The notes beneath the pieces are model-generated. The model saw only the letters and a program-made list of their open reading frames with translations. It was not told the DNA's origin and ran no database searches. Shown one piece after another: positions 53,914-59,870 of a stretch of 64,000 nucleotides of DNA (its first letter is position 1; each line of letters starts with the position of its first letter). The position numbers were made by a program, and so were the translations under genes. This DNA is from an uncultured Cryomorphaceae bacterium. Its GTDB lineage: Bacteria > Bacteroidota > Bacteroidia > Flavobacteriales > Schleiferiaceae. The DNA lies in assembly GCA_937120475.1 (NCBI GenBank), contig CAKZJV010000007.1:2310068-2374067 (forward strand). Reading direction: 5' to 3'.

Positions 53914-56601
53914 ATGAAAAACGGTTACTATCGGGCGTTTGCCGCCCTTACTTTATGGGCATTAAGTTTTAACCTTCCGGCTCAGAATTGCAGTTACAAC
54001 CCCACCCCTTTGGTTATTTCCGGTAATACTAACTGGAATACCGACCGGAAAATCACTTCCGATGTCGTCATCCAGGGCGGGGCCACCCTTACCCTTACCG
54101 CCAAACTCGAAATGCTGCCCGATGGCAAAATATTGATTAAGCCCAATGGCAAACTTAAAATCAATGCAGGCGGCCACATTACCAGTACAGCCGGTTGCAC
54201 CAACTCCTGGAAAGGCATTGAGATTGAAGGCAACCGCAACCAGGGGCAAATCAATTTTTTCCAGGGAAAACTGGATATAAGCGGAGGGAAGCTCTCCAAC
54301 GCCTGCCGCGCCATCCTCAACACCGTTACCCTTACCGGTGGAGGCTACGACTGGCATAAAACCGGGGGCATGATTGAGGCCGAAGACGCCACCTTTGAGA
54401 ACAACGCCCGCGATGTAACCCTGCTCACCTATCATAACGTGGCCGGGGGTAATGAGCTGAATTACCAGGCCCGCTTTACCAATTGCGATTTTTTGCGCAA
54501 CAACAACTACGTAAACCCGGCCCACCCCAACTCCCATGTGGCCCTGCTGGACGTGGTAGGCCCCGTTTTTGAAGGTTGCCACTTTATCAACACCCGCGAC
54601 CGCGATACCAATGCAGACCGTACCGCCATCGGGGCCACCAACGCCATTGCCAATTTTGTTCAGTCCACACAACGCAGGGGGCGTTTTGAAAATTACGACC
54701 GGGGTATCTTCATGTCCGGGGCCAGCCGCCCCGATAAGGAAGTACACATTTACGAAAACGACTTTGACCGCAACACCATCGGTATTGAACTGATCGGGTG
54801 CAGCAATTTCAAAATCACCTCCAACACCTTTGAGATGAAAAAAGGCCATTGGTGGAACTCCGTAACCAGTAGCCAGGAACCCTGGCAGTACGGTATATAC
54901 CTCGATGCCAGTTACGACTTCAGGATAATGGCCAATTACTTTACCAACGTAAGCAGCGGCAGCCCCATACTCGGGCAAACGGCCGTAGCCGTAACCGATG
55001 GCATGGGTTTTACCAACCGCCTGTACAAAAATGAAGTAGATGAGCTGGTGGGAGGCTTTGGCTCCTTTTCCTCCAACCGCAACGCCTCCGGTACCGATGG
55101 CCTTTTGATCGGGTGTAATGAATTTGACCTGCGGCCCCTGGGTACCGGTGATGTGGGCGTTATGGGTGCCTTTACCGGCTCCATCCCCCAGAATGAGTTG
55201 GGTGTAGCCAAACACCAGGGGCCCTTTGTTGTGTCTCAAAAGGATTACAGCAAAATGGCCAACAACCTGCACACCCCCGGCCCGGGTTCCAACTGGTACA
55301 CCTTCAATACCGTCAGTCAATCCTACTACTATCATTCCAATATGGAACCCCGCTGCATACCCGGCTACAGCGGCAAGCCTTTGAATTTGGAACCTCAAAC
55401 CGTTCCTTACGACCGTGATCAGTGGTGCCCCGGCCCCAATCCCGCCCTGCAAGCGGGCGATGTGAACACCACCCTGGCCGGGCTGGACGTGGAAGACCAG
55501 GGCTGGGGAGGCGAATGGGCCTTATTTTACCAGCTCATCGACAACGGCAGTACCCCCGCCCTGGAAGCCCAGATACTGGCAGCCGGGCAACCCGATTACC
55601 AAAACCTCTATCTCGACCTCATGGATCTATCCCCCTACGTATCCATTGAAAACCTGCTGAACCTTTTACAACTGCCCAACTTCCCGGAACTGGCCATCCG
55701 CAATATTTTGGTGGCCAACCCCCACGGGGCGCGTGACCCGGAGGTGATGGAAGCCGTCTATAACCACCAGCCCCCCTTTGCCACGACCACCATACAGGAT
55801 ATTGAACAAGGCAGCCACACGCTAACCTCTTACGATGTGCAAACCGCCAAAATATCCGCCCACAACTACCAACGTCACGAACTGGTGGACCGGCTAACCA
55901 CCTATTATGCCGAAGAAGGTAACGCCATGAATGAGATTACCCAACTGCTGGAAGACCGGGACGAGTTATTGTACCACTACGCCCTGGTGGATATGGAACT
56001 ACAGGCCGGGCTGCTCAGTGAAGCCCAAAGCCACCTGAACGCCATAGCCAGCACCGCTTTTATGGAAGGCAGTGATGCCGACCGCCACCAGGCCATGTTG
56101 GGCTATTATGCAGTAGTGACCGCCTGTTTGGAAGACGGCCGCCTGCTGACCCAACTCAACGGGGAAGAAATCAGCGACCTGCAAGCCATGTCCGGCTACG
56201 GCCCCTCCGACTTTCCCCTGGTACGTGCCAAAGCCCTTTCGCTGCTATGGCTCAACGGGGTAGCAGCCGTACACCAAAAACCCTCCCCCGACCAGGCCAA
56301 AACGCTGCCGGATTACGGAGTACGCCCCGCACGGCCTACCGCTCAGGTACAAGCCTACCCCAACCCGGCTACCGATCATTTGATTGTGCAGTGGGACTGG
56401 TTTAATATGGGTTTAACCCAAAGCATAGAAATAGAACTGTACAATACGGACGGGCGCAAGGTGTTCAGCCTGACGGAAGCCGACTACGCCCGCAATACCG
56501 CTGTACTGCGTTTACAAGACCACAAGCCCGGTTCCTACATCCTGCGTATGAAAAGCGGGGAGGATGTGCTATATTCGGAAACGGTGCTGGTAAATCGTTA
56601 A
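53914..56601 (+). CDS. Secreted beta-helix protein with type IX sorting domain
   Basis: An 895-residue exported protein: signal peptide (MKNGYYRAFAALTLWALSFNLPAQ), a right-handed parallel beta-helix region (about 30-470) with Asn-rich turns such as ATFENNARDVTLL and NDFDRNTIGIELIGCSNFKITSNTF, a helical alpha/alpha region (about 520-800, with AQILAAGQPDYQNLYLDLM), and a type A sorting domain at the end (VQAYPNPATDHLIVQW to SYILRMKSGE...ETVLVNR, about 815-895). The DNA is much richer in GC at third positions than its upstream spacer. Beta-helix cargo often binds or cuts polysaccharide, but no catalytic set is seen. It heads a cluster of similar cargo genes. Confidence 0.85.
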   Translation: MKNGYYRAFAALTLWALSFNLPAQNCSYNPTPLVISGNTNWNTDRKITSDVVIQGGATLTLTAKLEMLPDGKILIKPNGKLKINAGGHITSTAGCTNSWKGIEIEGNRNQGQINFFQGKLDISGGKLSNACRAILNTVTLTGGGYDWHKTGGMIEAEDATFENNARDVTLLTYHNVAGGNELNYQARFTNCDFLRNNNYVNPAHPNSHVALLDVVGPVFEGCHFINTRDRDTNADRTAIGATNAIANFVQSTQRRGRFENYDRGIFMSGASRPDKEVHIYENDFDRNTIGIELIGCSNFKITSNTFEMKKGHWWNSVTSSQEPWQYGIYLDASYDFRIMANYFTNVSSGSPILGQTAVAVTDGMGFTNRLYKNEVDELVGGFGSFSSNRNASGTDGLLIGCNEFDLRPLGTGDVGVMGAFTGSIPQNELGVAKHQGPFVVSQKDYSKMANNLHTPGPGSNWYTFNTVSQSYYYHSNMEPRCIPGYSGKPLNLEPQTVPYDRDQWCPGPNPALQAGDVNTTLAGLDVEDQGWGGEWALFYQLIDNGSTPALEAQILAAGQPDYQNLYLDLMDLSPYVSIENLLNLLQLPNFPELAIRNILVANPHGARDPEVMEAVYNHQPPFATTTIQDIEQGSHTLTSYDVQTAKISAHNYQRHELVDRLTTYYAEEGNAMNEITQLLEDRDELLYHYALVDMELQAGLLSEAQSHLNAIASTAFMEGSDADRHQAMLGYYAVVTACLEDGRLLTQLNGEEISDLQAMSGYGPSDFPLVRAKALSLLWLNGVAAVHQKPSPDQAKTLPDYGVRPARPTAQVQAYPNPATDHLIVQWDWFNMGLTQSIEIELYNTDGRKVFSLTEADYARNTAVLRLQDHKPGSYILRMKSGEDVLYSETVLVNR

Positions 56602-56616
56602 TTTGTAGAATGGTAA

Positions 56617-56657
56617 AGTTATGAGTTGAGAGTTTAACCTACTTTCAACTCATAACT
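56617..56657. repeat. 17-bp inverted repeat (hairpin) after the beta-helix gene
   Basis: AGTTATGAGTTGAGAGT (56617-56633) and ACTTTCAACTCATAACT (56641-56657) pair over 17 bp with one G-U pair and a 7-nt loop. It is AT-rich and lacks a T-tract, so it may be an imperfect terminator, a transcript stabiliser or a small repeat element. Confidence 0.6.
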
Positions 56658-56677
56658 CTTCACTAAATCACTAAGCT

Positions 56678-58150
56678 CTGAAACAGGCTCTAACATACCT
56701 ACTAATTGCTCTAGGACTACTGGCCCAGGGGCAAACCCGTTTTAACCGCATTCATAGCCTGGGTGGTAGCCAGTCCGAATTACTGGTATTGGATTCGGGT
56801 TACGTTACGATGGTAAGCGAGGACCAGCAACTGAAGGATTTGATGGTGCGCGAATACGATCTACAGGGCAATATGGTGGATTCGGTGCATTACAATTATA
56901 ACAATGAAACCGTTTTTACCACTGGTAGTTGTCTGTTTTCAGTATTGAAAAATCGCTTTATCGCGGGGTTTTCCATCAATAATTCCGTAAGATTCCTGAA
57001 ATTCAAAAGGAATTGGGATACGGTAAGTTCCGGTTTCTATCAGGTGGACACCTTTTACACCATCGTACATTCACTGCATAAAGACAGTGATTCTACTTTT
57101 GTCGCAAATGGCTGGTTTTACAACGAGGTTTCCAAGCGTTCCAACCTTTTTTTGACCCGCTTCGATACCGCTTTTAACCCGCTGTGGGAACAACGTTATT
57201 ACGATAGTACAAACGTTGCCTACGGTGGTTTTTTTGATGGGTACGTGATTCCCACCCAAAAGGGCTTTATGATGGGCATTCAGGGCTTTTACGCCAGTAA
57301 CAACCCGATTAAAGGGTTTATTATTGGTACCGATTCCCTGGGCAATGAATTGTGGCGCAAAGAGTTCAGCAACAAAAAAGGCATTGGCCTGGTACAGATG
57401 GCGGCCCGCACGGACGGCCAGTACCTCTTTATAGCCCCGGAAATACTGGACACCAATTACCGGTCTTTTGACCGGCCCTCGCGGCTGAGGTTTGGGGTTA
57501 TTGATGCGGATGGTCAAATAACCGTGGATAAGCGGATTGGCCCGATTCTGGACAATATGGGCACCTCGGCCTTTACTAAAACTTTGGACGGTAATTTTGT
57601 AACCGGTGGCTATACGTACGTTGACCCCGGCCAGGATGTGTCCTATTTATTCAAGTTTTCACCCGATGGGGACAGCATCTGGCACCGGAACTACTGGCAC
57701 GGTTACCCGGAAGCCTTTAATATGCTTTATACGGCCCGCGCCACCGCTGACTCTGGTCTGGTAATTACTGGAAGCCACCTGGATGTTGAACGCAGATACT
57801 CCCCTTTAAATAGCGCAAACTACACCTGGCTTTTAAAGCTCGATCAATACGGCTGTGATACAGCCGGTTGTCATCAAATCGGTTTACCGGAAACGGAGTT
57901 TTCACAAATCCCGCTTAAAGTTTATCCCAACCCGGCCCGTGAGCAGTTTACCATTGCGTGGCCGGAAACCCAGGAATCCGTACAACTAAAAATTTTCAAT
58001 ACCACCGGCCAACCGGTGTATGAAGAAGAGTTAAAGGAAGTGCTGGAAAAAACCATCGATACCCGCCAATGGCCAGCCGGTATGTACCACCTGCAAATCA
58101 ACAGCGGCAGAGCGCAACAATCCAGGGCCATCCTCATTGAAAAGGGCTAA
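56678..58150 (+). CDS. Type IX cargo protein, tandem copy 1, CTG start inferred
   Basis: About 490 residues. The frame is open back to a TAA at 56672, leaving only GCT and CTG before the sequence KQALTYLLIALGLLAQGQT, a clear signal peptide; thus CTG 56678 is the only sensible initiation codon. The first ordinary start (TTG 56789) would lose the signal. The body has beta-propeller-like repeats with Asp-Ser-Gly and phrases such as GTDSLGNELWRKEF and FSPDGDSIWHRNYW, and ends in a type A sorting domain from LKVYPNPAREQFTIAW. Its neighbour at 58208 is a close paralog: both ends and the centre are nearly identical, while about residues 85-175 differ. Ligand unknown. Confidence 0.78.
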   Translation: MKQALTYLLIALGLLAQGQTRFNRIHSLGGSQSELLVLDSGYVTMVSEDQQLKDLMVREYDLQGNMVDSVHYNYNNETVFTTGSCLFSVLKNRFIAGFSINNSVRFLKFKRNWDTVSSGFYQVDTFYTIVHSLHKDSDSTFVANGWFYNEVSKRSNLFLTRFDTAFNPLWEQRYYDSTNVAYGGFFDGYVIPTQKGFMMGIQGFYASNNPIKGFIIGTDSLGNELWRKEFSNKKGIGLVQMAARTDGQYLFIAPEILDTNYRSFDRPSRLRFGVIDADGQITVDKRIGPILDNMGTSAFTKTLDGNFVTGGYTYVDPGQDVSYLFKFSPDGDSIWHRNYWHGYPEAFNMLYTARATADSGLVITGSHLDVERRYSPLNSANYTWLLKLDQYGCDTAGCHQIGLPETEFSQIPLKVYPNPAREQFTIAWPETQESVQLKIFNTTGQPVYEEELKEVLEKTIDTRQWPAGMYHLQINSGRAQQSRAILIEKG

Positions 58151-58232
58151 GGTTGAAACGTATTGGCACCAGATACCAAAAACTAAGGACTAGAAACTCC
58201 AAAAACTCTGAAACAAAAACTCACATACTTAC
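58141..58232 (+). repeat. Inter-copy spacer repeat, unit A
   Basis: The 92 nt spanning the end of copy 1, the spacer and the first codons of copy 2 recur with a few substitutions and a 1-nt deletion at 59680-59770. It marks the boundary of a tandem duplication whose unit is gene plus spacer. Confidence 0.85.
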
Positions 58233-59689
58233 TCCTGCTTTTTGGGCTTATCGCCCAGGGGCAAACCCGTTTTAACCGCATTCATAGCCTGGGTGGCAGC
58301 CAGTCGGAATTACTGGTATTGGATTCGGGTTACGTTACGATGGTAAGCGAGGACCAGCAACTGAAGGATTTGATGGTGCGCGAATACGATCTACAGGGCA
58401 ATATGGTGGATTCAGTGCATTACGATTATAGCAATGAGACCGTTTTTACCACGGGGAGTTGTCTGTTCAAGCAAAAAAAATCCCCTCATTTTATCGCGGC
58501 ATTTTCCATTGACCGCCCCATTCATTTTGTGAAGTTCAACCGGCAGTGGGACACCGTGCAAAGCCTTTCCCTGCGTTTACTTTCTTCCTCCTCCACCAGT
58601 GTTTACTCCCTCTACCAGGACAGTGATTCTACCTTTGTGGCCTGCGGGCGTTACGATGAGCTGAATAACAAACGTTCAAATTTATACCTCCTTAAACTGG
58701 ACACCGCCTTTAACGTGCTTTGGGAGAAACGCTATTACGATAGCACAAACGTTACCTACGGTGGTTTTTTCGATGGGTACGTGATTCCCACCCAAAGGGG
58801 CTTTATGCTGGGCATTCAGGGCTTTTACGCCAGTAACAACCCGATTAAAGGATTTATTATTGGTACCGATTCCCTGGGTAATGAGTTGTGGCGAAAAGAG
58901 TTCAGCAACAAAAAAGGCATTGGCCTGGTACAGATGGCGGCCCGCACGGACGGCCAGTACCTCTTTATAGCCCCGGAAATACTGGACACCAATTTCCGGT
59001 CTTTTGACCGGCCCATGCAACTGAGGTTTGGGGTTATTGATGCGGACGGTCAAATAACCGTGGACAAGCGGATTGGCCCGATTCTGGACAATATGGGCAA
59101 CTCGGTTTTTACACAAACTTTGGACGGTAATTTTGTAACCGGGGGTTATACGTACGTTGACCCCGGTAAAAATGTGTCTTACCTTTTTAAATTCTCCCCT
59201 GACGGAGACAGCATCTGGCACCGGAACTACTGGTACGGTTACCCGGAAGCCTTTAATATGCTTTACACGGCCCGCGCCACCGCTGACTCTGGTTTAGTAC
59301 TCACCGGATATCATTCCGATTTGGAATATAGACATTCACCACTAAATTCTACGGCTAGTTACACCTGGCTTTTAAAGCTCGATCAACACGGCTGTGATAC
59401 GGCCGGTTGTCATCAAATCGGTTTGCCGGAAACGAAGCTTTCACAAATCCCGCTTAAAGTTTATCCCAACCCGGCCCGTGAGCAGTTTACCATTGCGTGG
59501 CCGGAAACACAGGAGTCCATACAACTAAAAATTTTCAATACCACCGGCCAACTGGTGTATGAAGAAGAGTTAAAGGAAGTGCTGGAAAAACGTATTTCGG
59601 TTCAAGGGTGGCCAACCGGTATATACTACCTTCAAATCAACAGCGGCAGAGCGCAACAATCCAGGGCCATCCTCATTGAAAAGGGCTAA
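58208..59689 (+). CDS. Type IX cargo protein, tandem copy 2, CTG start inferred
   Basis: About 493 residues, paralog of the gene at 56678. CTG 58208 precedes KQKLTYLLLLFGLIAQGQT, again a signal peptide with no ATG, GTG or TTG between the in-frame TAA at 58184 and the mature part; the first normal start is TTG 58319. The protein shares TRFNRIHSLGGSQSELL, the GGFFDGYVIPTQ region and the type A sorting domain (YPNPAREQF to QSRAILIEKG) with copy 1. Residues about 85-175 diverge (QKKSPHFIAAFSIDRPIHF here against SVLKNRFIAGFSINNSVRF). Identical start context in both copies argues against a sequencing error. Function unknown. Confidence 0.78.
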   Translation: MKQKLTYLLLLFGLIAQGQTRFNRIHSLGGSQSELLVLDSGYVTMVSEDQQLKDLMVREYDLQGNMVDSVHYDYSNETVFTTGSCLFKQKKSPHFIAAFSIDRPIHFVKFNRQWDTVQSLSLRLLSSSSTSVYSLYQDSDSTFVACGRYDELNNKRSNLYLLKLDTAFNVLWEKRYYDSTNVTYGGFFDGYVIPTQRGFMLGIQGFYASNNPIKGFIIGTDSLGNELWRKEFSNKKGIGLVQMAARTDGQYLFIAPEILDTNFRSFDRPMQLRFGVIDADGQITVDKRIGPILDNMGNSVFTQTLDGNFVTGGYTYVDPGKNVSYLFKFSPDGDSIWHRNYWYGYPEAFNMLYTARATADSGLVLTGYHSDLEYRHSPLNSTASYTWLLKLDQHGCDTAGCHQIGLPETKLSQIPLKVYPNPAREQFTIAWPETQESIQLKIFNTTGQLVYEEELKEVLEKRISVQGWPTGIYYLQINSGRAQQSRAILIEKG

Positions 59690-59770
59690 GGTTGAAACGT
59701 ATTGGCACCAGATACCAAAAACTAAAGACTAGAAACTCCAAAAGCTCTGAAACAAAACTCACATACTTAC
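59680..59770 (+). repeat. Inter-copy spacer repeat, unit B
   Basis: Second copy of the 58141-58232 sequence, following tandem copy 2 and leading into the collapsed third copy. It differs by few bases, including loss of one A in the run after CTGAAACA. Confidence 0.85.
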
Positions 59771-59870
59771 ACAGCAAAAAACCATTGATACCCGCCAATG
59801 GCCAGTCGGGGTTTACCATCTCCAGGTAGGTGAATGGCCGCAAAAATTCCAAACCTTGATTATCGAATAA
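59747..59870 (+). pseudogene. Collapsed third copy of the tandem cargo gene
   Basis: The first about 24 nt after CTG 59747 match the signal-peptide start of copies 1 and 2 (with one A lost, shifting frame). The sequence then jumps to the final codons of the gene: read in frame from about 59776 it gives KTIDTRQWPVGVYHLQV, as at the end of copy 1 (KTIDTRQWPAGMYHLQI), and closes TLIIE-stop at 59868-59870. About 1.4 kb of the body has been deleted. The 3' part is nearer to copy 1 than to copy 2 (RISVQGWPTGIYYLQI). Confidence 0.8.

Follow-up and report, generated by a model that had tools for sequence, protein, structure and literature searches.

Among genes described as having non-canonical starts, infC begins with ATT in E. 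coli and with ATC in Streptomyces and is autoregulated by its product, IF3 (PMC5472188). The same source describes sigR of Streptomyces, whose GTC start is repressed by IF3. Among bacterial starts 0.024% are CUG, which in E. coli yields 0.86% of the AUG output (both quoted in PMC11497404), and start switches to CUG were counted at 2 of 61,358 ancestral AUG and 1 of 5,080 ancestral GUG codons (PMC5622118). In Flavobacterium johnsoniae, initiation is described as relying on mRNA structure and upstream bases such as A at -3, not on Shine-Dalgarno pairing (PMC6847099). Here, two tandem genes for predicted secreted proteins from an uncultured Cryomorphaceae bacterium very probably begin with CTG, which, from comparison of the sequences, appears to be the only plausible start of both ORFs. 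The genes lie in a 64,000-nt stretch of DNA (the window), inside a 3.04 Mb contig of a genome of 3.65 Mb in nine contigs. The features of the locus, in window coordinates, are as follows.

53914-56601, + strand: upstream beta-helix type IX cargo gene with an ATG start, syntenic in the same-genus genome G002 (56.6% identity)
56611-56665, + strand: hairpin with a long stem, after the upstream gene and ahead of copy 1 (-24.1 kcal/mol, z -4.9, 0/200 shuffles)
56678-58150, + strand: copy 1, a type IX cargo gene of 490 aa and a stop when translated from CTG
56678-56680, + strand: CTG proposed as the start of copy 1, with one codon separating it from an in-frame TAA; the ortholog (L068) has GTG at the matching place
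56678-56731, + strand: predicted signal peptide of copy 1, LKQALTYLLIALGLLAQG, with the hydrophobic core placed by window and the cleavage place by eye
56789-56791, + strand: first usual start codon of copy 1, TTG, behind the signal peptide
58151-58207, + strand: spacer between copies 1 and 2, 55/57 bases equal to 59690-59746
58208-59689, + strand: copy 2, a type IX cargo gene of 493 aa and a stop when translated from CTG
58208-58210, + strand: proposed CTG start of copy 2, read from the sequence
58208-58261, + strand: predicted signal peptide of copy 2, LKQKLTYLLLLFGLIAQG, placed in the same two ways
58319-58321, + strand: first usual start codon of copy 2, TTG, read from the sequence
59690-59746, + strand: spacer after copy 2, a repeat of 58151-58207
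59747-59870, + strand: third-copy remnant, with CTG, 13 residues before the frame breaks, and the final 32 tail residues in another frame

The initial annotation had reported that in both copies the interval from the upstream stop to the signal peptide is free of ATG, GTG and TTG, that the next usual start is a TTG whose use removes the signal, and that CTG occupies the same place in both copies and in the collapsed third, and each of these observations is borne out. The tandem ORFs (56675-58150 and 58187-59689) open with TAA GCT CTG AAA CAG GCT CTA ACA TAC in copy 1 (CTG at 56678) and with TAA GGA CTA GAA ACT CCA AAA ACT CTG AAA CAA AAA CTC ACA TAC in copy 2 (CTG at 58208), and from the upstream stop to the conserved N-terminus both are devoid of usual starts, as is the case for genes with non-canonical starts. 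The earliest usual codon in both full genes is a TTG, codon 38 counted from CTG, 111 nt 3' of each CTG and past the signal peptide (56789 and 58319). In the remnant, the CTG at 59747 opens the translation LKQNSHTYTAKNH, which then meets a stop. That the start codons are errors of sequencing or assembly, conceivable at any single site taken alone, is the least probable of all the readings weighed here and very remote, since CTG recurs in both full copies and in a remnant, with differing surroundings, inside the long contig, and again at infC and at a transporter gene; the earlier claim that no single read error is involved stands. A dispersed repeat at the start sites was also considered and rejected: the spacer matches nothing but its own two places.

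Both proteins carry the C-terminal sorting domain of type IX secretion system (T9SS) type A cargo, scoring above cut-off with Por_Secre_tail (PF18962; 59.1 and 60.9 bits against 27, E 5.3e-16 and 1.5e-16 for copies 1 and 2) and with TIGR04183 (48.3 and 46.1 bits against 23). Read from CTG, each also has an N-terminal Sec signal peptide by hydrophobic core and window score, the calls being made with a hydrophobicity window, not a trained predictor. GldL, the component of the type IX machinery that was searched for, is encoded in the genome (TIGR03513, 194.5 bits against 68.3). By sorting domain, signal peptide and GldL, both copies are T9SS type A cargo, with export predicted. Tail aside, the protein bodies matched no family in Pfam or NCBIfam, and in a PDB sequence search the tail region alone matched, weakly (best E 0.0061). 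AlphaFold2 models of both copies were set aside (mean pLDDT 32.1).

The lack of a usual start ahead of the signal peptide is confined to these two genes among the 140 Por_Secre_tail matches of the genome, some of which share an ORF. The starts of 138 ORFs were located, 132 of them with a hydrophobic core and 6 further ORFs below the hydrophobic-core threshold used. The script marked 7 ORFs, in 5 of which reading the N-termini by eye showed ATG or GTG ahead of the true signal peptide. By coding signal ahead of the first usual start, the twins rank 1 and 5 among 979 coding-like ORFs drawn from 1,264,000 bases of the genome (about 35%). CTG initiation as a widespread habit of the genome was rejected, with 4 of the 979 ORFs accepted (both copies, infC and the transporter gene); because the screen requires coding signal before the first usual start, it passes over CTG genes that have an ATG close by. 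Three other top-ranked candidates were not accepted as CTG genes. L081:15136-15696 (- strand) is frameshifted, its signal peptide lying just upstream in another frame, through either a frame break or an error in the sequence. The other two, L297:17899 and L284:18116, are low-scoring ORFs and probably shadows.

A search of 99 relatives and 88 family genomes found one close ortholog, at locus L068 of G002, with 56-57% identity and placed behind the same upstream gene. Six of the 88 family genomes had a match at 1e-60, G002 alone being close (57%), and a contig scan with copy 2 gave six pattern matches and no relative. The initial annotation had proposed looking for an ATG aligned to CTG in orthologs; G002 has GTG there instead (TAA AGA GTG AAA CAG AAA CCC ACA TAC), separated from the in-frame TAA by one codon, as is the CTG of copy 1. 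A tree of 14 proteins places the G002 ortholog as the sister of copies 1 and 2 (support 96/95). Near the aligned start, ATG is found in 10 of the tree's 12 homologs and GTG alone in the other 2 (G002 and one of G001), so CTG does not characterize the family and would instead be a local switch, from GTG or an unspecified NTG. The record of how the codon changed is thin, coming from a single close ortholog.

The alignment of copy 1 with copy 2 covers 1470 bases, of which 240 differ, distributed 72/46/122 over the three codon positions, and the length gap of 9 nt consists of three one-codon gaps, in-frame indels that are partly a product of the protein-guided alignment. The differences correspond to dN 0.116, dS 0.489 and dN/dS 0.235 (bootstrap 0.185-0.306), so that purifying selection is seen on the reading frames of both copies. 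When the same number of changes was placed randomly in 2000 neutral simulations, every run contained a stop (mean 7.7; observed 0) and at least 137 residues were altered in each (observed 81). Divergence over 56678-59689 is mosaic: near-identical blocks adjoin others whose silent sites are saturated. The copies have thus exchanged DNA, as in gene conversion, which complicates dN/dS. By its density of changes, the 5' end directly behind CTG is an older block of divergence: the first 15 codons hold 17 base differences, 6 of the 11 changed codons being silent, and CTG has therefore been retained in two diverging lineages. The earlier proposal that CTG is older than the duplications is upheld for the present divergence of the copies.

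It is very unlikely that a usual start was lost ahead of the duplication, leaving two silent genes that are no longer translated. The weakness of CUG in E. coli and the decay of the third copy into a remnant would fit such a history, yet the low dN/dS and frames still intact after 240 differences largely refute it, the ortholog has GTG, and infC, which is expected to be essential, has CTG too. The ATG-to-CTG form of silencing offered in the initial annotation is thus disfavoured, whereas its suggestion that CTG is the likely start gains support from the missing usual start, from the GTG of the ortholog and from selection that includes the stretch before TTG. Its other proposal, a naturally low level of translation, is plausible. 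In this stretch, differences fall 6/2/11 by codon position between the copies and 14/10/20 and 12/8/18 to the ortholog, and by this pattern it is also coding-like and under purifying selection. The same stretch bears on initiation at the inner TTG, a usual start codon in frame in both copies (56789, 58319), which would yield a product without signal peptide and rates below silencing. The 36 codons preceding the TTG evolve as coding and retain a hydrophobic core and an AQGQ-type cleavage region. A type IX cargo protein that lacks a Sec signal has no exit from the cytoplasm, and the product from TTG would be unable to leave it.

A changed initiator tRNA was examined as a source of CUG decoding and rejected: among 39 tRNAs read from 40 Rfam matches there are three Met(cat), one of them having the G-C stem of an initiator, besides a single ordinary Leu(cag). 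The initiator is ordinary in look, its anticodon stem having three G-C pairs, and CUG would therefore be read with a first-position mismatch. Compared with 282 ATG starts, local RNA folding at CTG is average in copy 1 and weaker than usual in copy 2; the base at -3 is G in copy 1 and A in copy 2. The base at -2 is C at every CTG start seen (copies, remnant, infC and transporter), against 64 of the 282 ATG starts, the twin copies not being independent of each other in this respect (56673-56677, 58203-58207). A hairpin also precedes the ortholog GTG (L068:5529-5608; z -4.3, 0/200 shuffles), at the same place as the one before copy 1 and with unrelated sequence; no such hairpin was found upstream of copy 2. 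The arm sequence at copy 1 occurs twice only, as its own two arms. Because they have no T-run, these hairpins are not usual terminators. It is scarcely credible, and less probable again than a start at the inner TTG, that the start is supplied in some other way, either by C-to-U editing of CUG to UUG or by a frameshift out of an upstream frame. Editing would bring back a usual codon, and nothing direct favours either route; no upstream ORF feeds the frame within the 150 bases examined, and the sequences upstream of copies 1 and 2 differ.

The infC gene of this genome (L225:1189-1764, G000:C7) reads TAA AAG AAA GAA ACT CTG GCT AAA AGA and has no usual start before codon 57; its start codon appears, from the sequence, to be CTG. 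The gene was found in 58 of 60 relatives, and all 30 loci taken were read. In 19 genomes of the same family the codon is CTG in 15 (4 of which, G023, G024, G026 and G034, also have TTG or GTG between CTG and the IF3 body), ATT then CTG in 2 and ATG in 2, while 11 genomes of other families of the order have ATA, ATC or ATT (10) or ATG (1). AC(A/T) stands immediately 5' of the CTG in 15/15 family genomes. Among the named infC matches listed, of which the best 80 were kept, the first near-cognate codon in frame, which is not a proven start, is ATA in 70, CTG in 3 and ATT in 2, with a usual codon in 5; the closest among these 80 come from Owenweeksia and Cryomorphaceae-type metagenome bins of the order Flavobacteriales. 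In the queuosine-precursor transporter gene (TIGR00697; L285:14425-15108), CTG is the only start ahead of the first hydrophobic stretch. At 30 loci of 31 matching genomes, the position is mostly TTG in the nearest relatives, including G002, G018, G023, G005 and G020. The papers listed by literature searches on CTG starts, infC and type IX secretion showed neither a CTG-started infC nor a CTG-started type IX cargo gene.

As infC too apparently starts with CTG, the twins look like working genes, probably weakly translated, rather than silenced ones. We consider it likely that both are working type IX cargo genes starting at CTG with a first-position mismatch, with probably low output and probably restrained by IF3. 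On the evolutionary evidence, ribosomes would start at the CTG of both copies, the ordinary initiator tRNA reading CUG despite the mismatch, and output would be low but useful. By analogy with infC and sigR, IF3 probably restrains this initiation. A wider and doubtful extension is a small IF3-controlled CUG regulon, in which infC would set its own level via CUG, and the cargo twins, the queuosine-precursor transporter and perhaps other genes would follow IF3 activity; if true, the output of secreted surface proteins would be coupled to the condition of the translation apparatus. The infC result opens the question of CUG and IF3 to direct testing.

Gene callers limited to ATG, GTG and TTG would let the twins begin only at the inner TTG, dropping the signal peptide, and exported proteins would be misfiled as cytoplasmic; such misannotation of starts applies to infC too. 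If CTG works here, the locus offers natural, selected CUG starts in a phylum without Shine-Dalgarno use, on which the handling of this codon by the ribosome and IF3 could be studied.

In their signal peptide and C-terminal tail (PF18962, TIGR04183) the twins resemble other T9SS type A cargo, but of the tail-bearing ORFs read in the genome they alone were found to lack a usual start ahead of the signal peptide. The rare switches to CUG counted in PMC5622118 are matched in kind, with GTG in the sister species and CTG here; those switches were counted in close genome triplets, whereas the CTG of the twins has outlasted a duplication and ~0.5 silent changes per site. Like sigR, the twins are non-housekeeping genes with a very rare start, although the codon of sigR is GTC, not CTG, and its control by IF3 is proven, while a hold of IF3 on the twins is suggested by analogy. 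The sigR gene also has a strong Shine-Dalgarno sequence and the twins none, as expected for Bacteroidota from what PMC6847099 describes. The infC kind shares with them the missing usual start, the near-cognate codon and its conservation in the lineage, and in this genome infC itself apparently has CTG; it differs in being a housekeeping gene with autoregulation proven in E. coli, whereas the twins are secreted surface proteins known from sequence. The twins thus belong with the known non-canonical starts (infC ATT, sigR GTC), to which they would add a duplicated, selected CTG pair in secreted cargo, together with an apparent CTG start of infC across a family.
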